A stretch of DNA of 64,000 nucleotides from an uncultured Lachnospiraceae bacterium (lineage in GTDB: Bacteria; Bacillota; Clostridia; Lachnospirales; Lachnospiraceae), in the NCBI GenBank assembly GCA_947178145.1, contig CAMWXE010000022.1, forward strand, positions 1 to 64,000, in the 5' to 3' direction. A model generated the notes under the pieces. It had not been told where the DNA came from. It saw nothing but the letters and a program-made list of their open reading frames with translations, and made no database searches. Below, piece after piece: positions 3,877 to 13,030 of this stretch. The stretch's first letter is position 1; the number at the start of each line of letters is the position of its first letter. A program made the translations under genes and the position numbers.

Positions 3877-4929
3877 ATGAAAAACATAGTCGTTATTTTT
3901 GGAGGGGCATCTTCGGAGTACGAGGTTTCGCTGCAGTCAGCATATGCAGTGATCAACAACATTGACAGGGAAAAATACAACCCGGTGACAGTCGGTATCT
4001 CGCGGGAGGGAAGCTGGTTCCATTTTACAGGGGATATCGACAAGATCAAGGAGAATACATGGTGCAATGCGGCGGACTGTGTACCTGCGGTGATTTCGCC
4101 GGACAGGACAGCGCACCAGTTGATTCTGTTACAGAAAGAAGGGATCAAAACCATTTCAATCGACGCAGTTTTTCCTGTGCTGCACGGGCGCAACGGCGAG
4201 GACGGAACGGTTCAGGGGATTGCGGAGCTTGCAGGGATTCCGCTTGTCGGCTGCGGCACACTGGCATCTGCGCTCTGTATGGACAAGGACAGGGCGCACA
4301 GGCTGGCGGGACTGGCAGGCGTGCGTGTGCCAAGGGCGATGGTGCTGACAGATAACAGTGCAGTCAACAAGGCGTTTGATTTTGCAAGGGAAATCGGATT
4401 TCCGGTCTTTGTTAAGCCTGTGAAAGCAGGTTCTTCCTATGGCGTGACAAAAGTGGAGGACATGGAACAGCTCTCACCGGCGGTAGCACTCGCTTTCCAA
4501 TATGACAACCGTGTCATTTTGGAGGAGACAATCGAAGGCTTTGAGGTGGGCTGTGCCGTCTGCGGCAGCGACAGGCTGACTGTCGGGGAAGTCGATGAGA
4601 TTGCGCTTGACCAGACAGGATTTTTTGATTACACGGAGAAATACACACTCAAGACCGCAGCGATCCATGTGCCGGCGAGGATTTCGTCAGACAAAGCGCA
4701 GGAGATCAAGGAGGCTGCCAAAAGGATTTACAAAGCACTGGACTGTTCCGGCTTTGCGCGGGTGGACATGTTTCTGACGCCGGAGGGTGAGGTTGTATTT
4801 AATGAGGTGAATACGATACCAGGATTTACAGAGCACAGCCGCTATCCGGGCATGATGAGGGCGGCAGGATACAGCTTTGCCGGGATACTGGACAGAATTA
4901 TCGGGCAGTGTTTTGAGAAAGATGAATGA
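3877..4929 (+). CDS. vanG: D-alanine--D-serine ligase, VanG type
   Basis: ATP-grasp ligase joining D-Ala to D-Ser, giving peptidoglycan precursors with low vancomycin affinity. The 350-aa protein closely follows VanG throughout: IFGGASSEYEVSLQSA at the N-terminus, VFPVLHGRNGEDGT, LASALCMDKDRAH, VKPVKAGSSYGVTK, and FDYTEKYTLK (about residues 250-259, omega loop) with the VanG-type EKY signature rather than the Ddl KY pattern. It ends with the metal/ATP motif NEVNTIPGFT. GGAGAGAG precedes ATG 3877. It is the first gene of a three-gene operon with vanXY and vanT. Substrate specificity for D-Ser is inferred from homology and from the serine racemase gene downstream. Confidence 0.92.
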   Translation: MKNIVVIFGGASSEYEVSLQSAYAVINNIDREKYNPVTVGISREGSWFHFTGDIDKIKENTWCNAADCVPAVISPDRTAHQLILLQKEGIKTISIDAVFPVLHGRNGEDGTVQGIAELAGIPLVGCGTLASALCMDKDRAHRLAGLAGVRVPRAMVLTDNSAVNKAFDFAREIGFPVFVKPVKAGSSYGVTKVEDMEQLSPAVALAFQYDNRVILEETIEGFEVGCAVCGSDRLTVGEVDEIALDQTGFFDYTEKYTLKTAAIHVPARISSDKAQEIKEAAKRIYKALDCSGFARVDMFLTPEGEVVFNEVNTIPGFTEHSRYPGMMRAAGYSFAGILDRIIGQCFEKDE

Positions 4930-4972
4930 CTGGAAACGGAAGATGGAACGGTTAAAAGGGGGACAACAGGAT

Positions 4973-5779
4973 ATGAAAACAGTTTTGTTAAAATACGAGG
5001 ATATTCACAAGGGATATCTGATTTTAGTGAACAAAGAATACCGATATTACGAGCAGCGTCAGAATCTGTCCTATGCAGGCGTATGGAACGGTGAGGAGAT
5101 TTTGTATGGGAGCATGCCCCTAGAGAGCATGCTCTTGGAGAGCATGCTCTTGGAGAGCAGGGCAAATCACGAGCTGAACAAGCTGATGGAGGAGATTGGC
5201 GGCTGGAAATATATCGTACCAGTGAGCGCGTGGCGTTCTCTTTCGGAGCAGCAGGAAATCTGGGATCAGTCCCTGCAGGAGAGCGGACAGGAGTTCACGG
5301 AACAATATGTCGCCATTCCCGGACATAGCGAGCATCAGACCGGGCTGGCGATAGACCTTGCATGGAAACAGGAGGAGATTGATTTTATCCGCCCGTATTT
5401 TCCGTATGAGGGCATCTGTCAGACTTTTCGCCAAAAGGCAGTAAAGTATGGACTGATACAGCGCTACCAGGAAGAAAAGCAGTCTGTCACACAGATAGGG
5501 CATGAGCCGTGGCATTTCCGGTATGTGGGGACACCGCATGCGGAGATTATGGCACAGAAGGGATTTGCGCTTGAGGAATATATTGCGTTTTTAAAGGATT
5601 TTTGTTATGGGAAAAATCCATTTATTTTTCAGAAATATAAGATATCTTTTGTGAAGGCAGCGGGTGATGTGACAGAGATTGCGATAGATGACGCGCATCC
5701 ATACTGTATTTCGGGAAATAACTGTGATGGGTTTATCGTGACAGAGGTTATCGGAAAAGAGGATAGAGATGAGAGCTGA
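4973..5779 (+). CDS. vanXY: D,D-peptidase/carboxypeptidase of the VanXY/VanY type (M15)
   Basis: Zinc D,D-peptidase that removes D-Ala-terminated precursors so that only D-Ala-D-Ser ends remain. Zinc motifs of the M15B family are complete: PGHSEHQTGLAIDL (SxHxxGxAxD, about residues 116-129) and GHEPWHFRYV (ExxWHxR). A C-terminal extension after residue ~205 carries an ISGNN.DGFIVT motif seen, as I recall, in VanXY of Clostridioides cryptic vanG clusters. I choose ATG 4973, preceded by AGGGGG; an in-frame ATG at 4922 overlaps the vanG stop (ATGAATGA) and is possible. An in-frame 15-bp tandem repeat at about 5114-5158 encodes three LES-containing units (PLES-MLLES-MLLES). No signal peptide is evident, so the protein should be cytoplasmic. 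Confidence 0.88.
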   Translation: MKTVLLKYEDIHKGYLILVNKEYRYYEQRQNLSYAGVWNGEEILYGSMPLESMLLESMLLESRANHELNKLMEEIGGWKYIVPVSAWRSLSEQQEIWDQSLQESGQEFTEQYVAIPGHSEHQTGLAIDLAWKQEEIDFIRPYFPYEGICQTFRQKAVKYGLIQRYQEEKQSVTQIGHEPWHFRYVGTPHAEIMAQKGFALEEYIAFLKDFCYGKNPFIFQKYKISFVKAAGDVTEIAIDDAHPYCISGNNCDGFIVTEVIGKEDRDES

Positions 5780-7961
5780 AGAGAAAAGCCATGAGAAGCG
5801 TTATACAGGAATCGACTTCTTTCGGCTGGCTGCGGCACTGTTGATCATCACGATTCACACATCGCCGCTTGCTGGTATCAGTGAGACGGGTGATTTCATT
5901 CTGACACGCATTGCCGCGCGTGTTGCGGTTCCGTTCTTCTTTGTGACTTCCGGATTTTTCCTGATTTCCAGATACAATTACCAGATTGGAAAATTAGGCG
6001 CTTTTGTGAGGAAGACAGCGCTGATCTACGGTGCTGCAATACTGATTTACATACCAGTCAATCTTTACAATGGCTATTTCAAAATGGAGAATCTGCTGCC
6101 CAATCTCATAAAGGATATTGTGTTTGACGGGACGCTGTATCATCTGTGGTATCTGCCAGCATCGATCACTGGCGGGGCGGCTGCGTGGTATCTGGTGAAA
6201 AAGCTGGATTACAAGAGGGCGTTTGCGGTGACGGCCGTGTTTTATCTCATCGGTCTGTTCGGGGACAGTTACTATGGACTGGCGGAGAAAAATCTGGTTT
6301 GCAGCCGTTTTTATGCGCTTCTTTTTCAGGTATCAGATTACACGAGAAACGGCATTTTCTTTGCACCGGTCTTTTTCGTAACAGGCGGGTTTATCGCGGA
6401 CCGCAAGGAGGAAGCTGCATGCAATGAAACGCAATGCAGGGATTCTGAGCCGCGAAAAATGGCGTCTGTAAAAGATGGCGTCTGCTTTGGGCTGATACTG
6501 GCACTGATGCTGGCGGAAGGGCTTACGCTGCATCATTTTCAGATACAAAGGCATGACAGTATGTATGTGTTTCTGCCGCCGTGTGTGTACTTTCTCTTTT
6601 CTTTCCTTCTGCAGTTCAGGGGAAAGCGCCATGCGTGTCTGCGGGATGTGTCGCTGATCGTCTATCTCATCCACCCGATGATGATCGTCGTGATCCGCAT
6701 GTTTGCAAAGCTGCTTCAGATACAGGGGCTGCTCGTGGACAATAGTGTGGTTCATTTCCTCGCAGTCACAGCGGCATCGGTCGGGTTCAGCGTGGCGGCG
6801 GCAGGATTGTGGAGCCGGTATGGGCACAGACATAAACAGCGCAATACCGATACCGACAGGGCCTATATAGAAATCAATCTGGAAAATCTGGAGCACAATG
6901 TAGCGGTTCTGGGCAGGGCAATGCCACGGGGATGTGAGCTGATGGCGGTAGTGAAAGCGGAGGCATACGGACATGGAATCTGTGAAATCGCGATACATCT
7001 GGACAGAATCGGTGTCAGGGCGTTTGCAGCGGCCACGATTGACGAGGGTATCAGACTGCGCAGATGCGGTATCAGGGGCGAAATTCTGATTCTTGGCTAC
7101 ACAGCGCCTGAGCGGGCAAGAGAGCTTCGCAAATACGACCTTACGCAGACACTAATTGATTATGACTATGCCTGCAGACTGGCGGAGCAGGGCTGCACGG
7201 TCAAGGTTCATATGAAAATTGACACAGGGATGCACAGGCTTGGATTTGATTCTGATTTTAATATAGAAGAAATCCTGTGTGTCTTTGCGATGGAGCATCT
7301 TGTCATAAACGGCATCTATACCCATCTGTGTGTCGCGGACAGTCTGGAGGAAGAGGATGTCCGTTTTACAAAACAGCAGATTGCAAATTTTTACGGCGTT
7401 TTGAGACAGTTGAAAAAGGAAGGGATACGCATTCCGAAAATCCATATACAGAGCAGCTATGGATTGCTGAATTACCCGGAACTAAAATGCAATTATGTCA
7501 GGGCGGGAGTCGCCCTGTACGGTGTCCTGAGCACTCCGGATGCACAGACGAAACTGCAGCCTGACTTGCGGCCAGTGCTCGCGCTGAAGGCGAAAGTGAT
7601 TCTGCTCAGGTTCGTTCCGCAAGGGGAATCCGTCGGTTACGGCAGAACCTTTGTCGCCGACAGGGACAGCGTCATTGCCATACTGCCCGTCGGCTATGCG
7701 GATGGGTTTCCGCGGAATCTGTCCGGCAGAGACAGCTATGTACTGATCAATGGGAGCTGGGCGCCGATTGTCGGGAGAATCTGCATGGATCAGCTTGCAG
7801 TTGATGTCACCGATCTTGCCGATATCGAAGTCGGCATGACCGCGACGCTGATTGGCAGTGATGGCAGTGAGACGAGCGATGCGCCGACGGTGGCTATGGA
7901 TTCCGGGAGCATCACGAACGAGCTGTTGAGCCGTCTTGGGAGCCGCCTGGGAAGAATATGA
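5769..7961 (+). CDS. vanT: Membrane serine racemase VanT (acyltransferase-3 domain + alanine/serine racemase)
   Basis: Supplies D-serine. Residues ~1-350 are a multi-pass membrane domain of the acyltransferase-3 type (FFRLAAALLIITIHTSPL at the start, about ten hydrophobic segments) thought to take up L-serine. Residues ~362-730 are a fold-type III PLP racemase, with the Schiff-base lysine in VVKAEAYGHG (about Lys396), substrate/PLP motifs NYVRAGVALYG and SVGYGRTF, and GRICMDQLAVDVTD near the C-terminus. The 730-aa length agrees with VanT of vanG/vanC clusters. ATG 5769 lies inside the vanXY end (11-bp overlap), so the two are coupled. It is the last gene of the operon, followed by a strong terminator. 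Confidence 0.92.
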   Translation: MRAEEKSHEKRYTGIDFFRLAAALLIITIHTSPLAGISETGDFILTRIAARVAVPFFFVTSGFFLISRYNYQIGKLGAFVRKTALIYGAAILIYIPVNLYNGYFKMENLLPNLIKDIVFDGTLYHLWYLPASITGGAAAWYLVKKLDYKRAFAVTAVFYLIGLFGDSYYGLAEKNLVCSRFYALLFQVSDYTRNGIFFAPVFFVTGGFIADRKEEAACNETQCRDSEPRKMASVKDGVCFGLILALMLAEGLTLHHFQIQRHDSMYVFLPPCVYFLFSFLLQFRGKRHACLRDVSLIVYLIHPMMIVVIRMFAKLLQIQGLLVDNSVVHFLAVTAASVGFSVAAAGLWSRYGHRHKQRNTDTDRAYIEINLENLEHNVAVLGRAMPRGCELMAVVKAEAYGHGICEIAIHLDRIGVRAFAAATIDEGIRLRRCGIRGEILILGYTAPERARELRKYDLTQTLIDYDYACRLAEQGCTVKVHMKIDTGMHRLGFDSDFNIEEILCVFAMEHLVINGIYTHLCVADSLEEEDVRFTKQQIANFYGVLRQLKKEGIRIPKIHIQSSYGLLNYPELKCNYVRAGVALYGVLSTPDAQTKLQPDLRPVLALKAKVILLRFVPQGESVGYGRTFVADRDSVIAILPVGYADGFPRNLSGRDSYVLINGSWAPIVGRICMDQLAVDVTDLADIEVGMTATLIGSDGSETSDAPTVAMDSGSITNELLSRLGSRLGRI

Positions 7962-7968
7962 AAATGAA

Positions 7969-8008
7969 GGCACCCATCCTGACGTTGGATTGGTGCCGAG
8001 ATTTTTTT
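7969..8008 (+). terminator. Rho-independent terminator after vanT
   Basis: Stem GGCACCCATCC / GGATTGGTGCC (one mismatch) with loop TGACGTT, followed closely by seven T residues. It ends the van operon just before the convergent helicase gene. Confidence 0.85.
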
Positions 8009-8024
8009 AGTAACTGTCAATAAG

Positions 8025-9575
8025 TTATGTAATTTCATGCTGCTCCGCCAGTTTTTTCATGCACATCCAGTAATTTCTTTCTCTCGTGGATTTTGCATTC
8101 CGAATATGTTGTTCTATCACACCTTTTTCGGACATCCAGTCTGTTCGAATGGATCCGAGATCCAGGCAGTGTATTGCCTCCTGGATTTTGCTTTCTGACA
8201 GACCAGCGCTTTGCATCCGCTCCAGCATCGCAGATGCTTTTCGCACATAGCAGGAATTGTAGAACATGCCCATATCCGGCCGATATTCCAGATCAAAAAT
8301 GCGGGTTCCTTTGGTGTTTGGAAGGAAACAGGAATCCTCAGAGGATTCTGTGATGTGCAAATAATATAGGGTTGCATTTTCTTTTCCCTCTTTTTTCCGG
8401 ATGATTCGACCAAGGCGCTGAATTCTCTGGCGCTGGGTTGAGGTGCCGGACAGGATGATGCCAACTGCAGCATCTGGGACATCGACACCTTCATCAATGG
8501 CTTTACAGGCAATCAGTATTCGGATATCCCCCAGCCGAAAACGTTCCAAAGCGTTTTTGTTTGCCTGTGGTCCAAGCCTGGAATGATAACGTGCGACTTT
8601 ACCAGAGTACAAGTCACACAGTCGTTCATATAACGCCTCAGCTTGACGAATGCGCTCGCCAAATATCAGTATTTTATTCTGTATGCCCAGATATCGTACC
8701 AGGTCATATGCGCAGTTGATCCGCTCGGCAGCCATACAGACTAAGCTTTTCCTTTTGTAGGACAAACGCATATATTGGCGGGCAGTGTCCGCAATGCGCC
8801 TGTCTTTGTCCCCGGTGAGCTTTCGCAGCAGTTCGAAGCGCTCTCTCTGGTCAAGTTTGTCGAGAATGGGATAGGATGAGAGCAGCGTGAAATACAGTAC
8901 GGACATCCGCTCAGAGAGCTCTTCATATTCAATCCGTTCCTCCTGCTCGAAAGAGAGCCCGATATGAAAAATATCGTAAGGACATACAGTGCGCCGTGCC
9001 GCGGCTGCATCCATTCCATAGCTGTAAATTTTGCGTCCAAGAGCTGCGGCAAGTTCCTGTCCGGCTTGACCGGAGGGCAAAGTGGCAGAAAGCCCCAGCG
9101 AGAAGAAGCGATCTTTGTAAGGAGTGATATGTGGCATAAATTCAAAAATCAATTGATTTTGTCCGCTTACATAGTGGTGGCATTCATCTGCGATGAGCAG
9201 TACAGACTTACCATTGCGGAGCTCTGACAAAATCTGGCGTGCAAGCTCGTAGCGCGCAGAGTTTATCACATAGATCATGTAATCGCAGTCTGGCGGGGAT
9301 TTGTATCCGCCTCCGCGCAGGCCGATTTGCTTCTGTATGTCTTTTTCGCTAAGAAAAGCTCTTAAAGCGCGGCTCCATTGGTGCATGAGTGTTCCAGTCG
9401 GAACGACGATTTTGACATGCAGCTCCATGTCCGCTCTCTGTGACAGGCGGTTTGCAGCAGTGAGTGCAAGCAGTGTCTTGCCTGATCCGGTCACAGCCTG
9501 CACCATTCCCCTGCCATTATTAGAAAACCACCGCCCGAGACATTCCTCCTGCCACTGATATAGTTTTTGTTCCAT
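8025..9575 (-). CDS. DEAD/DEAH-type SF2 helicase, divergent from BREX-like ATPase genes
   Basis: A 516-aa superfamily 2 helicase. Motifs in order: Q-like region KLYQWQEECL, Walker A TGSGKT (residues 29-34), motif Ia VVPTGTLMHQW, DEAH-like DECHH (130-134), SATLP (163-167), then the RecA2 domain with ILIFGERIRQAE, IACKAIDEGVDVP and QRIQRLGRIIRK (motif VI, arginine finger). I start it at the ATG whose complement is 9573-9575, preceded on its strand by AAAGGAAC; an extended frame upstream has no ribosome site. It is transcribed away from the three-gene set at 9835-12990, with back-to-back promoters in between. In Shango and BREX-related loci similar helicases accompany BrxC/D-type ATPases, so a DNA-directed defence role is likely but unproven. 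Confidence 0.88.
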   Translation of the reverse strand: MEQKLYQWQEECLGRWFSNNGRGMVQAVTGSGKTLLALTAANRLSQRADMELHVKIVVPTGTLMHQWSRALRAFLSEKDIQKQIGLRGGGYKSPPDCDYMIYVINSARYELARQILSELRNGKSVLLIADECHHYVSGQNQLIFEFMPHITPYKDRFFSLGLSATLPSGQAGQELAAALGRKIYSYGMDAAAARRTVCPYDIFHIGLSFEQEERIEYEELSERMSVLYFTLLSSYPILDKLDQRERFELLRKLTGDKDRRIADTARQYMRLSYKRKSLVCMAAERINCAYDLVRYLGIQNKILIFGERIRQAEALYERLCDLYSGKVARYHSRLGPQANKNALERFRLGDIRILIACKAIDEGVDVPDAAVGIILSGTSTQRQRIQRLGRIIRKKEGKENATLYYLHITESSEDSCFLPNTKGTRIFDLEYRPDMGMFYNSCYVRKASAMLERMQSAGLSESKIQEAIHCLDLGSIRTDWMSEKGVIEQHIRNAKSTRERNYWMCMKKLAEQHEIT

Positions 9576-9691
9576 GATTGTGTTCCTTTGCTGTTGTGAA
9601 AGGCTTTTTCTGTTGTCAAAATGTGTGCAAAATTTGTTGCTGTGTACGCCTTCGACGAACAAAATCGTGGCGTGAACAGTAATACAGTAAT

Positions 9692-9720
9692 AGTATATCA
9701 AAATTTCTGCTTATTTGAAA
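9692..9720 (-). promoter_or_regulatory. Promoter of the helicase gene
   Basis: On the minus strand, TATACT (9692-9697) with an extended TGn element. The hexamer 17 bp upstream, TTTCAA, is a weak -35. An ACGCC/GGCGT hairpin lies in the leader (about 9648-9674). Confidence 0.45.
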
Positions 9721-9727
9721 CAAAATG

Positions 9728-9756
9728 TTGAAAAAATGTTCTGTTTCGGATATACT
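9728..9756 (+). promoter_or_regulatory. Promoter of the BREX-like ATPase operon
   Basis: TTGAAA (9728-9733), 17-bp spacer, TATACT (9751-9756). It faces away from the helicase promoter, whose -10 is 54 bp away, so one regulator or supercoiling could govern both. Confidence 0.65.
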
Positions 9757-9834
9757 TTTTATAGTTTGTAAAGAATGGTCCTTTTCAAAACTATAAACAG
9801 ATACTTGTGCTAAAATGCACAGATTGGAGAAAGA

Positions 9835-10602
9835 ATGAATTACGAAGACTTTTATCAGGATCTACAGCCGCAGCAAAAAAGTGTGAAGGATGGGATTGCT
9901 TCCCTTCAGAAGTTGTTTAAGACAGTCAGCCGTGAGCTGGAGGGCGGGGATGTCAAAAATCTCGCCAAGGATTTGGAGGCTATGGCGCAGATGGTTTCAA
10001 CGGTTTCGGAATCTGTGGATGCCATGAAGGCTGCTGCGGATGGATTTGACGCGAAAGGATATTTTGAGAGCGGGGAATTTGCGGAACAGATGCTTGCAGT
10101 CTGTGCAGAAAAGGGTGTGGATGTCCGCGGAGAATTTCCCGTCTATGAGATGTTTCCTTACCGTGTAAAGCTGGATCCGGAGAATCAGGACGTTTATTTA
10201 GACCGCAAGAAAGTGCAGTGCATGCGTCCCGGAAGCTTTGTGGATATCGTCAGGAACGGCCAGGAGAAGCTCAACAAGGCATCTTTTAATGCGGTATCCT
10301 TTGCCAGTGAACTGGCAGATGCCTATGACCTGGCTGTTATAAAATACAACAGGCAGCCATTTTCGGACATTTATCTGACAAATTTGTATAAGATTTTGGC
10401 GCCGATGAGCCGTTTTCGGAAAGATTATGACCAGCAGAGCTTTGCGTTTGACCTGGCAAGGTTATATATTTCCGGTATAGAGGAGACGAAAAACGGAAGA
10501 AAGTTTCAGTTTGGACCAAGCAGAGTTGGAGGGAAGGCGATCCGAATTCTGGACATGGAAGGAAAGGAACAGTTTCTTGCGACAATTCGTTTTTTTGAGT
10601 AG
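9835..10602 (+). CDS. Unknown 255-aa protein, first gene of BREX-like ATPase cassette
   Basis: I do not recognise a family. The first ~75 residues are strongly helical with heptad character (SLQKLFKTVSRELEGGDVKNLAKDLEAMAQMV), suggesting a coiled coil. A central part contains the motif RGEFPVYEMFPYRVKLDPENQDVYLDRKK cut into short strands, and the C-terminal half is mixed alpha/beta. No transmembrane segment, cysteine cluster or catalytic motif is visible. GGAG lies six bases before ATG 9835. Only 20 bp separate it from the first ATPase gene, so the three genes form an operon. By position it could be the substrate- or DNA-recognition subunit; it does not look like the TerB-domain protein of Shango systems. 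Confidence 0.8.
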   Translation: MNYEDFYQDLQPQQKSVKDGIASLQKLFKTVSRELEGGDVKNLAKDLEAMAQMVSTVSESVDAMKAAADGFDAKGYFESGEFAEQMLAVCAEKGVDVRGEFPVYEMFPYRVKLDPENQDVYLDRKKVQCMRPGSFVDIVRNGQEKLNKASFNAVSFASELADAYDLAVIKYNRQPFSDIYLTNLYKILAPMSRFRKDYDQQSFAFDLARLYISGIEETKNGRKFQFGPSRVGGKAIRILDMEGKEQFLATIRFFE

Positions 10603-10622
10603 GCTGATGAGGGGGACATGCT

Positions 10623-11807
10623 ATGGCAGAAACGTTGAATGAAATTTCCGGGATTGCGGCGGAGCAGCTCACCTGTGGGGTTGCGTTCCTCACTGATTTC
10701 TGGCGGGAAAAGTATCTTCAGGAATATATTAGGAACGGCGGGAGCAAGATCAAGTTTGTGACAGGGCGTCAGGGAAGTGGAAAAACACATTTTCTGCGGT
10801 TGATGACAGCGATTGCAAAAGAAGAAAATTATAAGACTGCGCAGTTTTCAGCAAAAGATATCTGGCTTCATGATTTTAAGGATATCTATGTGGAGATTCT
10901 CCGGCAATGTGATATCATGGGGTGTCTGGAGGCGGTCAGTCATCAGTTAATTGAGCAGATGGGATTTGATTTTCGGAATATTCCAGCGGAAATGCGTTTT
11001 ATCGACTACCTTTCTCAAAATGATTCGGGTGATGCGATTACCAAGCGGGAGATTCGCTCTCAGCTGCGGGAAATCTTTTTGGACAACCCCTTGATGGACA
11101 ATAATTTTGCCCTGGCATGCAGTATGCTTACGGGGAGTATTTTGGGATATCCTGTGTTGGAAGAGCAGAACAGGGAACTGCTGCTTGCATGGCTGGAGGG
11201 CGACCGCTCCATCAAACTGTCCCAGCTGCGGGCGCTGGATTTTTACCCTTGCCGAATCACAAAATACAATGCCAGACATATGCTTCGCTCTCTGGCAGAG
11301 CTGATACGCATGGGCGGGTATTCAGGCCTGTTTGTGACAATTGACGACATGGAGATTCTGACCAGTCGTTCCAGTCTGGAACCAGTACATTATACAAAGG
11401 TGAAGCGGGAAGATACGTATGAGAGTATCCGCCAGCTGATTGACGATATCGACAGCATGAGAAACATTCTGTTTGTGTATGCTTTTGACCGCGAACTGCT
11501 TGACAACGAAAATGCCGGGATAAAATCGTATCAGGCGTTGTGGATGCGAATTCAGAATGAGATTGTGGGAGAGCGTTTTAACCGTTTTGCGGATATGATA
11601 GATATGGACCAGCTGGCGGCACAGGAATATACACCAGATGTGATCGTTGCAATGTCCGAGAGCATTGCAGGTGCGCAGAACAGCACTATGGTCAGTCCGT
11701 TGGATCGGGAGGGCGCAGAACAGCTTGTAGAACGTGCACGCATGGGGGCGGTAGGCGTGCCGCAACTGATTCAGATGACGATGCAGGGGGTGGATGCGGA
11801 TGTATGA
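10623..11807 (+). CDS. BREX-system-like P-loop ATPase (first of two)
   Basis: A 394-aa ATPase of the BrxC/BrxD ATP-binding group (formerly DUF2791). Walker A is GRQGSGKTHF at residues ~47-56 and Walker B LFVTIDDMEIL at ~235-245. Between them are family-like helices containing ARHMLRSLAELIRMGGYSGL, the arrangement in which BREX ATPases place a regulatory helix before Walker B. A C-terminal segment (RFNRFADMIDMDQL, then VERARMGAVGVPQLIQ) resembles the lid region. Its stop overlaps the start of the next ATPase gene by 14 bp, so the two products are probably made in fixed ratio and may form a hetero-oligomer. Sequence similarity between the two is low outside the motifs. Function is inferred from the family only. 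Confidence 0.8.
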   Translation: MAETLNEISGIAAEQLTCGVAFLTDFWREKYLQEYIRNGGSKIKFVTGRQGSGKTHFLRLMTAIAKEENYKTAQFSAKDIWLHDFKDIYVEILRQCDIMGCLEAVSHQLIEQMGFDFRNIPAEMRFIDYLSQNDSGDAITKREIRSQLREIFLDNPLMDNNFALACSMLTGSILGYPVLEEQNRELLLAWLEGDRSIKLSQLRALDFYPCRITKYNARHMLRSLAELIRMGGYSGLFVTIDDMEILTSRSSLEPVHYTKVKREDTYESIRQLIDDIDSMRNILFVYAFDRELLDNENAGIKSYQALWMRIQNEIVGERFNRFADMIDMDQLAAQEYTPDVIVAMSESIAGAQNSTMVSPLDREGAEQLVERARMGAVGVPQLIQMTMQGVDADV

Positions 11808-12990
11808 TATGGAAGCGAGACATATGATCGAAGCACTGCGCTCGGGGGTACCTTCCCGCGCTGTGGGGCAGTATTTTTCGGAGGCGCGTCCGAAAATCAT
11901 GAAAGAAATTTCAGACCGGCTGGATCAGGTCTGTGAGCAGGGAAAGTCAAGCGGTATGGTGATTTGCGGAAAGTATGGGGAAGGCAAAACCCATCTGCTG
12001 AACACGGTATTTAGCCTGGCCCACTCCAACAGTATGGTAGTCTCCTATCTGTCGCTGAGCAAGGAAACACCGATGGATAAGCTCTATCTGGTGTATCAGA
12101 AACTGATACAGAATACCTATCTTCCCAAACGGGAGCAGCCGGGGTTTATGCATGAGGTAGAGAAAATATCTGCAAAAAACCCGATCGCAAACGAGATGAT
12201 TTTATATGCTGCAAAACAGTTGGAGACCGATAAGCTGTATTATCTGTACCGCTCTTATCTCAACACGGAGGACCCGGACGAAAAGTTTTTGCTGCAGGCG
12301 GATCTGGAGGGAGATTTTATTGCAAATGCTTCGCTGAAAAAAATTTATCGGCGTATTTTTAATGCGCCTGTGAAGTACAATGTCAATTTTACCAAGACAA
12401 AGCACTGTGGGGACTACATTTCTTTTATGAGTCATCTGTTTACACAGATGGGGTATCATGGATGGGTGATTTTGGTTGACGAGACGGAGCTTATGGGGCG
12501 CCTTGGCAAAAAAGCGCGCCTGAATGCATACAGGAATATGGCGAAATTCCTGATGCCGAACATGTGTCCAGAGTCGACGTTCAGTATCTTTGCGCTCAGT
12601 GCCTCCTATGTGGAGGATGTCATTGAGGGAAAACATGAATATATGAACCTCGAGGAGATTTATCCAGAGGAACAGGAGCCGGCCAGATCGGTCCTGGATA
12701 TGCTGACGAAGGCACCTCAGCTGCTGCCGCTGACGAAAGACGAAATCAACGAGGTATTGTGTAAGATACAGGATTTTCATGGCAAGGCATACGAGTGGAC
12801 GCCCAGTTTGTCAGCGGCTTCGCTGACGGCATCAACACAGTCAGGCGGTTATCTGCTGCGCACGAAAATCCGCGCGGCAATCGAGTTCTTAGACCAGCTT
12901 TATCAGTATGGAAAGGCAGGAAATACGACCATCAATGAACTTGGCGAGGAGACATTTGAGGAAGATGTACCAGTGATTGATGATTTTTAA
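11794..12990 (+). CDS. BrxD-like BREX-system P-loop ATPase (second of two)
   Basis: A 398-aa protein with the typical BrxD/DUF2791 opening, MIEALRSGVPSRAVGQYF, then Walker A CGKYGEGKTHLL (residues ~57-68) in the GxYGxGKT form of the family, and Walker B GWVILVDETELM (~222-233). The acidic C-terminus follows a winged-helix-like tail (GGYLLRTKIRAAIEFLDQL). The start may be ATG 11794 or 11800; the latter gives better spacing from GGGGGTGG and overlaps the previous stop as ATGTATGA. A clear terminator closes the operon. With the helicase and the 255-aa protein it makes a four-gene cassette lacking the methyltransferase, PglZ and TerB proteins of BREX or Shango. Confidence 0.85.
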   Translation: MRMYDMEARHMIEALRSGVPSRAVGQYFSEARPKIMKEISDRLDQVCEQGKSSGMVICGKYGEGKTHLLNTVFSLAHSNSMVVSYLSLSKETPMDKLYLVYQKLIQNTYLPKREQPGFMHEVEKISAKNPIANEMILYAAKQLETDKLYYLYRSYLNTEDPDEKFLLQADLEGDFIANASLKKIYRRIFNAPVKYNVNFTKTKHCGDYISFMSHLFTQMGYHGWVILVDETELMGRLGKKARLNAYRNMAKFLMPNMCPESTFSIFALSASYVEDVIEGKHEYMNLEEIYPEEQEPARSVLDMLTKAPQLLPLTKDEINEVLCKIQDFHGKAYEWTPSLSAASLTASTQSGGYLLRTKIRAAIEFLDQLYQYGKAGNTTINELGEETFEEDVPVIDDF

Positions 12991-13008
12991 TGGAATCAAA
13001 TAAAAATG

Positions 13009-13030
13009 GCTGTCGGTGACAGCTTTTTTT
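13009..13030 (+). terminator. Terminator of the BREX-like operon
   Basis: GCTGTC / GACAGC stem with GGT loop, directly followed by seven T residues. Confidence 0.8.

Follow-up and report, generated by a model that had tools for sequence, protein, structure and literature searches.

The window, the 64,000 nucleotides of contig CAMWXE010000022.1 from an uncultured Lachnospiraceae bacterium that were analysed here, comes from a gut organism and carries at 8025-12990 a cassette of four DNA-motor genes (Table 1). A helicase gene of superfamily 2 (SF2), HEL, lies on the minus strand and points away from a plus-strand operon, from which it is separated by a gap of 259 bp; the operon encodes a 255-residue protein, U255, followed by two AAA+ ATPases, ATP1 and ATP2. 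An earlier reading made from the sequence alone (the sequence-only reading) had placed all four genes at these positions, with the ATPase genes consecutive and overlapping, and both points hold: the overlap is 8 or 14 nt, depending on whether ATP2 starts at the ATG at 11800, as the consensus of 25 relatives does, or at the first in-frame ATG at 11794 (398 aa). The helicase open reading frame (ORF) as listed spans 558 aa from a TTG codon, and because its relatives start at the ATG at 9575 we assign HEL to the shorter frame. The same genes recur jointly in dozens of loci, so the arrangement is not one of chance. On balance we lean towards the view that the cassette belongs, as one subtype, to a family of putative anti-invader systems that is apparently undescribed and has a conserved triad, U255-ATP1-ATP2, as its base. 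The rationale for a role in defence is that relatives of the triad keep company with known phage-defence genes.

Table 1. Genes and borders of the cassette, in window coordinates.
Feature	Position	Strand	Description
HEL	8025..9575	-	SF2 helicase, 516 aa, XPB/Rad25- and PbeA-like core with a C-terminal tail of ~110 aa
Divergent intergenic region	9576..9834		promoter-like sites on both strands; weak evidence
U255	9835..10602	+	255 aa, without convincing library match; long helical hairpin 3-70, then alpha/beta part
ATP1	10623..11807	+	BrxC/BrxD-family AAA+ ATPase, 394 aa, Walker A GRQGSGKT, Walker B VTIDD
ATP2	11800..12990	+	BrxC/BrxD-family AAA+ ATPase, 396 aa, Walker A GKYGEGKT, Walker B ILVDETE
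Intrinsic terminator 3' of ATP2	13008..13030	+	-8.9 kcal/mol, z -3.4
Intrinsic terminator of upstream racemase gene	7969..8008	+	cassette boundary, not HEL's own terminator

The triad and its changing partners

A genome scan with U255 returned 72 loci, many of them contigs of metagenome-assembled genomes (MAGs), which are mostly Lachnospiraceae by title and include three Sphaerochaeta-type MAGs and one Desulfosporosinus. HEL is present at 68 of these loci, which confirms the four-gene co-occurrence in other genomes; the remaining four stop at contig edges, with the start of U255 207-726 bp from the edge. The arrangement of the window (HEL on the minus strand; U255, ATP1 and ATP2 on the plus strand) is kept in 63 of the 72, HEL stands last and on the same strand in two, and seven are cut by contig ends, four before HEL and three before ATP2. 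In all 72 of these near loci, some of which are broken, an ATP1 match comes after the U255 match. At least five copies show visible breaks or gaps, such that HEL is reduced to a 46-aa piece in L064, decay runs throughout L082, and parts are missing from L058, L071 and L079; in L065, HEL lies 3.2 kb away. Mean pairwise identity across 64 loci falls from 0.74 for ATP2 through 0.67 for ATP1 and 0.62 for U255 to 0.52 for HEL, which makes ATP2 the most conserved of the four cassette proteins and HEL the least.

Searches further afield showed the helicase to be the exchangeable part. A search of the phylum yielded 15 stretches from 14 genomes other than the window's own, and the triad stands side by side in 14 of these stretches, the last being a short fragment, with HEL beside it in four only. 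A broader profile detected U255 in two classes, in 4 of 20 genomes of the first and 29 of 113 of the second, a distant one. The 15 phylum stretches and 28 from the latter class form a set of 43 further stretches, and in 38 of them, some cut at a contig edge, U255, ATP1 and ATP2 are adjacent, in that order and on the same strand, as they are in the window; the exceptions comprise three contig ends, one 60-aa fragment and one lone U255 in a locus of clustered regularly interspaced short palindromic repeats (CRISPR). Over 100 loci the three proteins diverge in step, with correlations of 0.93-0.97 between their pairwise identities. The four-gene unit proposed in the sequence-only reading does recur in other genomes, but it was drawn too narrowly, since the widest conserved core is the triad.

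The partner of the triad in the window's clade is the XPB-like helicase. At 14 loci it is a superfamily 1 (SF1) helicase of ~860 aa, 50-87% identical to a reference copy, located after ATP2 in 13 loci and before U255 in one; the three copies run against Pfam contain AAA_11, AAA_12 and a topoisomerase zinc ribbon. BrxL lies directly downstream of ATP2 at two loci, L124 and L188 (304 and 319.5 bits). At L123, L127 and L128 the gene upstream of the triad encodes ~350-420 aa, with a helix-turn-helix in L127, the copy tested, and no helicase is recognised beside the triad. Divergent cassettes with a DEAD-box helicase occur on two plasmids. The one in Desulfomonile lies near ParA on a 27-kb plasmid, and its U255 was included in the broad profile A7 and so scores highly with A7 by construction, the narrower profile A1 giving 26 bits. 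The other is carried by a conjugative Aulosira plasmid of 216 kb with its own replicon type, where the cassette starts 172 bp after genes for PglZ (1059 bits), BrxD (529 bits) and a helicase; this helicase, on the side of the bacteriophage exclusion (BREX) genes, and the cassette's own helicase are 35% identical over 370 aa. The Aulosira U255 scores 85.8 bits with A7 and is a member of neither A1 nor A7. The plasmid, plasmid3 of Aulosira laxa NIES-50 (L206), thus has BrxD, a helicase and a full cassette in tandem, and its PglZ scores as the BREX-6 type.

Several triads lie within CRISPR-Cas loci. The clearest gene set is that of L119, in which 31 array repeats, Cas4, Cas1, the triad, Cas3', Csc1 and Csc2 are found together, all five Cas proteins exceeding their cut-offs in a type I-D-like set. 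The triad also stands among cas genes in L120 (Cas1, Cas3), L121 (Cas3, DevR/Csa2) and L168 (Cas1, Cas3, Cas4) and with cas1 in L167, where Csc2 scores 25.4 bits, just under its cut-off of 25.5; in L122 it is followed by a cas6-like gene that falls below the family cut-off (28.6 versus 58.65 bits). Of 45 genomes, 33 have cas1 anywhere, and six have a cas1 match no further than 10 kb from U255. Five of the six hold a triad (one by a cas1 fragment only) and one a lone U255, and the chance expectation is ~0.4 triads with cas1 within 10 kb (59 cas1 rows in ~126 Mb of the 45 genomes). The lone U255 (L184, 9430-10224) has no detected ATPase and sits between ORFs that resemble Cas3 and Cas4 by eye, with a cas1 match 8.6 kb off; it is possibly a remnant.

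Other genes were observed beside individual triads. A DUF6079 protein (1905 bits) and an N6/N4 methyltransferase, possibly a BREX-like pair, lie near the triad in L123 (11828-18000). Downstream of the triad in L126 (3901-8574) are proteins of 437 and 545 aa without a Pfam match and an HSP70-like protein, which may form a further partner set. A SNF2-type helicase of the SCO1167 family, which scores 699 bits against a cut-off of 1200 and runs off the contig edge, adjoins a CRISPR-clade triad in L173 (2-2080) and is possibly another partner.

Partner exchange follows the phylogeny of ATP2. On a tree of 77 rows, the five partner labels by themselves can be explained by 4 changes, the minimum possible, and all nine labels, with unknown-partner and outgroup rows included, need 12 changes versus a shuffled mean of 40.1, none of 200 shuffles being as low. 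The XPB-helicase rows form one clade of 34 (Shimodaira-Hasegawa-like approximate likelihood ratio test, 99), the six CRISPR rows fall within one clade of eight together with two unknown-partner loci, and the two BrxL rows within a clade of three together with one such locus; outside the ATP2 clade lie one BrxD-like protein and two ATPases that occupy the SngB position in plasmid loci with TerB, ATPase and helicase genes. The tree is a quick one with several long branches, in which near-copies cluster by themselves and the placement of the Desulfomonile row is unsure. Losses of the Walker A pattern G....GK[ST] track two of these clades: ATP1 has lost it in all six CRISPR-linked triads, where ATP2 retains it, and ATP2 has lost it in both BrxL triads, where ATP1 retains it. 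The same losses are seen in the unknown-partner loci L166 and L173 of the CRISPR clade and L125 of the BrxL clade, and ATP1 of L189, outside both clades, has also lost the pattern. Loss on alternate sides suggests a mixed AAA+ ring that needs only one kind of active site.

Proteins, borders and distribution of the cassette

Both ATPases match the Pfam family PF10923 (BrxC/D) well above its curated cut-off of 22.2 bits, ATP1 with 115.9 and ATP2 with 93.9 bits. Against the BrxD equivalog, which has a cut-off of 350 bits, they reach only 78.6 and 48.8 bits, such that the label "BrxD-like" given in the sequence-only reading is sound for the superfamily and fails for BrxD itself. The best PADLOC matches are BrxD (79.7 bits) and SngB (59.8 bits) for ATP1, and SngB (54.1 bits) and BrxD (48.9 bits) for ATP2. 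Residues G48, G51, S52, G53, K54 and D241 of ATP1 are invariant among 30 sequences. Among long copies of the helicase-bearing set, the Walker A pattern of ATP1 is present in 75 of 75 and its Walker B pattern in 74, and for ATP2 exact GKYGEGKT is found in 68 of 70 and the strict pattern W[VI]I[LI].DE[ST]E in 49 of 70. Weak Hda/DnaA/DnaI-like matches were also obtained. ATP1 and ATP2 are paralogous ATPases of the type of the origin recognition complex (ORC) and Cdc6.

HEL, searched against the families without its first Met, matches Pfam ResIII (77.3 bits) and Helicase_C (63.1 bits) and has PbeA as its best PADLOC match (198 bits); its profile identifies XPBII/RAD25 structures in the PDB with a best E of 1.3e-43. 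The motifs TG.GKT, DECH and QRLGRI.R are invariant columns in an alignment of 31 sequences. All 70 long copies in the helicase-bearing set contain DECH and QR.GR..R, and the strict pattern [TS]GSGKT is present in only 43 of them.

In the four family libraries (Pfam, PADLOC, NCBIfam and PHROGs) every match to U255 has an E of 0.04 or worse; its marginal matches in these and among PDB sequences are to coiled-coil-like models and designed proteins. An AlphaFold2 model (predicted local distance difference test score 87.6, predicted template modelling score 0.70) contains two long helices and then an alpha/beta part. A Foldseek search with this model gave no match at E 0.001, and the rows listed by VIA-align cover almost only the N-terminal hairpin (~residues 1-75), as they would for any helical hairpin; no fold match spanning the alpha/beta part stood out in either search. 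U255 does contain strongly conserved residues, and a P.YE..P motif at its start is common to most relatives.

The sequence-only reading had the cassette bounded by terminators, and the one downstream of ATP2 indeed folds well. At the other end, the hairpin at 7969-7997 (-17.4 kcal/mol, z -4.43) is followed by a T-run on the plus strand only and therefore fits the end of the upstream racemase gene; the minus strand has no U-run after this hairpin, and no terminator for HEL was found. Promoter-like sites do occur in the divergent gap, at 9728-9756 (plus) and 9719-9692 (minus), as a shared promoter region would have it, but their count in the scanned region does not exceed that of shuffles (13 versus 11.8, standard deviation 3.3). 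The neighbouring genes have no evident link to the cassette: a ROK regulator lies downstream, and upstream, genes for a D-Ala-D-Ala ligase, a VanY-type carboxypeptidase and an acyltransferase-alanine racemase follow one another (3877-7961) up to the bordering terminator, a series similar to the ligase/VanXY/VanT portion of VanG- or VanC-like clusters. No cas gene was recognised among the eight window neighbours scanned and no cas1 on the window's contig, the two cas1 genes of the genome being on other contigs. Elsewhere in the genome (L083 on contig C5, 6827-8849) a lone PF10923 ATPase of 425 aa (492 bits) follows a DUF4391 protein; the other genes there are housekeeping-like by eye (pth, mfd, spoVT-like), and no TerB or helicase partner is evident beside it.

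Is the cassette simply a housekeeping locus? Counting the window's own genome each time, U255 is present in 6 of the 250 genomes scanned for the family and in 15 of 398 for the phylum; for the genus, 8 of 30 genomes have ATP2. The 748 ORFs that flank the 72 loci and the window fall into 563 clusters, the largest of which touches 14 of 73 sources. Flank genes are shared by 12 of 13 pairs whose ATP2 proteins are at least 95% identical, by 8 of 21 at 90-95% and rarely below 90%, the pattern of a gene set that moves between lineages and, once arrived, is passed on for some time. Within the genus there is some inheritance in place, since the window and the relative G766 share the downstream ROK gene beside the cassette. 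A housekeeping locus, which the sequence-only reading had weighed against its own proposal, was rejected on the patchy presence and mostly unshared flanks.

Known systems and rival explanations

The cassette is neither Shango, as it has no TerB and two ATPases, nor BREX, as it has no PglZ, nor Pbe. The absence of PglZ and TerB, first noted for the cassette, extends to the whole draft genome (96.5% complete), which has no match to PglZ (PF08665) or TerB_N; among 12 other cassette genomes PglZ occurs in four and TerB_N in two, always on a contig other than the cassette's. The suggestion that U255 is no known Shango or BREX subunit also stands, since PADLOC, Pfam and NCBIfam gave no such match; nor did any of the three give a TerB match, and comparison with a haloarchaeal TerB-annotated protein gave an hhalign probability of 0.3%. 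Shango (SngA, a TerB protein; SngB, an ATPase; SngC, a helicase) is likewise a small operon that combines a BrxC/D-family ATPase and an SF2 helicase with a third protein, and SngB is among the two best PADLOC matches of both ATPases. However, the cassette has two paralogous ATPases rather than one SngB, and its helicase is XPB/PbeA-like, with no SngC model among the best 25 of its 47 PADLOC matches; SngC is grouped with BrxHI, DruE and DpdJ in PMC12278908. The BrxD-BrxHI dyad of BREX type 2 shares the family PF10923 and the tie between ATPase and helicase. In PMC12839542, BrxD is an ORC/Cdc6 AAA+ protein tied to the helicase BrxHI and is proposed as its loader, a role that the text treats only as conjecture. 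Unlike BREX type 2, the cassette has paired ATPases and U255, and lacks a methyltransferase, BrxC/PglY and PglW; no PglX/BrxX methyltransferase was found among the four cassette and eight scanned flanking proteins, the part of the genome searched for it. The link to PbeABCD and Dnd-linked restriction lies in HEL, which besides PbeA matches TIGR04095 (dnd_restrict_1) at 150.6 bits, far under the cut-off of 600; U255, ATP1 and ATP2 have no Pbe-subunit or Dnd/Ssp match in PADLOC, and no phosphorothioation gene was recognised in the cassette, the genome at large not having been searched for Dnd genes. Type I CRISPR-Cas (including I-D) is related to the triad by relatives that lie among cas1, cas3, cas4 and csc1/csc2, whereas none of the eight scanned neighbours of the window's cassette is a cas gene. 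Literature searches, which took in PMC12839542, PMC12278908, PMC10250203, PMC10910872, PMC12669027 and PMC8565338 but neither supplements nor most subscription journals, turned up no account of the triad.

Several observations weigh against a defence family. The frequency of U255 in one class (29 of 113 genomes) would also suit repair. The flank test compared 123 proteins with 125 control ORFs from 12 stretches of 5 genomes, the former being the nearest 125 of 350 non-redundant ORFs within 5 kb of 53 loci, minus two that overlap the cassette; its defence matches are scattered and not clearly better than those of the controls, and the count at E 1e-15 (108 versus 50 PADLOC families, 25 listed) includes several models that match one protein. 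None of the four cassette proteins has a recognised nuclease domain, pattern scans of viral contigs with the U255 and ATP2 profiles confirmed no relative, and ATP2 has no match in phages. The CRISPR-linked triads form one clade and are not independent events, and shared ancestry alone also yields co-divergence and label clustering. As for plasmids, the window's ATP2 matches four records, namely the Desulfomonile cassette and three haloarchaeal ones, of which the two that were read are annotated as TerB, ATP-binding and helicase proteins and are thus Shango-like; ATP2 of the SF1 and BrxL subtypes retrieved no plasmid cassette.

What else could such a gene set do? One hypothesis is a DNA repair or replication-restart machine, in which ORC-like ATPases load an XPB-type helicase for genome upkeep in some lineages. 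The XPB/Rad25 structures that are the closest solved relatives of HEL by profile, the weak initiator-like matches of the ATPases and the same 29 of 113 genomes speak for it, but the patchiness within family and genus, the mostly unshared flanks, and partner swaps with BrxL and CRISPR-Cas genes, unexpected for a repair pathway, make it unlikely, if somewhat less so than the explanations that follow. Two ORC-like initiators and a helicase might instead start the replication of a mobile element, and a divergent copy does lie near ParA on a 27-kb plasmid. Such a maintenance module appears improbable to us, as the Aulosira copy rides beside BREX genes on a plasmid with its own replicon type, the CRISPR-linked copies sit among cas genes, and the largest flank cluster touches so few sources (the clusters being unannotated and not screened for integrases). 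We give similarly little weight to the idea that the cassette is a Shango or BREX type 2 system that has diverged and either lost its TerB or PglZ partners or keeps them elsewhere in the genome: PF10923 membership, the BrxD and SngB matches and the plasmid copy that abuts BREX genes are what it would predict, yet PglZ and TerB_N are absent from the draft genome and share no contig with the cassette in the 12 other genomes, the TerB-locus and BrxD-like ATPases fall outside the ATP2 clade, and U255 shows no relation to the TerB-annotated protein. An abortive, toxin-like system, with U255 as a so far unrecognised effector that is set free once the helicase encounters foreign DNA, has a precedent in Hachiman, where a helicase acts as the sensor and its partner is an effector whose function was at one time unknown (PMC12278908), and would account for a protein of no identified family with strongly conserved residues. 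It too seems a poor candidate, because U255 is kept when BrxL or CRISPR-Cas genes replace the helicase, which suits a shared adaptor better than an effector.

A proposed model for motor loading

How BREX stops phage is still incompletely understood. Our preferred reading, an anti-invader family, builds on the gene content and order of the loci, the exchange of partners, the patchiness, the ATPase and helicase motifs and the loss of one Walker A in two subtypes; ring assembly, loading, the adaptor role and defence are the steps we propose. ATP1 and ATP2 most likely form a mixed AAA+ oligomer on DNA. The most likely role of U255, which has a helical hairpin and is constant across partners, is that of an adaptor that directs where the ring assembles or couples it to the partner. 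The ring would then load or switch on a motor, which is HEL in the window and elsewhere the SF1 helicase, BrxL or type I CRISPR Cas3-type machinery, and the motor would unwind or strip foreign DNA and so block its replication. This carries over the proposal that BrxD may load BrxHI (PMC12839542), such that U255 and the ATPase pair would recruit or load whichever motor adjoins them. More tentatively, and with rather less confidence than in the family itself, we hypothesize that U255-ATP1-ATP2 is a general-purpose loader of prokaryotic immunity that has successively been connected with helicases of the XPB-like, SF1-like and DEAD-box kinds, with BrxL and with type I CRISPR-Cas interference, one of its ATPases having become structural in the last two.

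If this were true, BREX-type and CRISPR-type immunity would be linked by a shared, undescribed step of motor recruitment, and some type I CRISPR loci are predicted to carry an unrecognised ATP-driven accessory complex. With one ATPase pair encoded alongside several different motors, so small a system allows helicase loading to be tested directly as a principle of immunity, and U255 provides a sequence marker that makes a systematic search for members of the family possible. A core of three genes that is found again and again with different partners beside CRISPR and other defence genes probably represents an undescribed kind of bacterial immune machinery.

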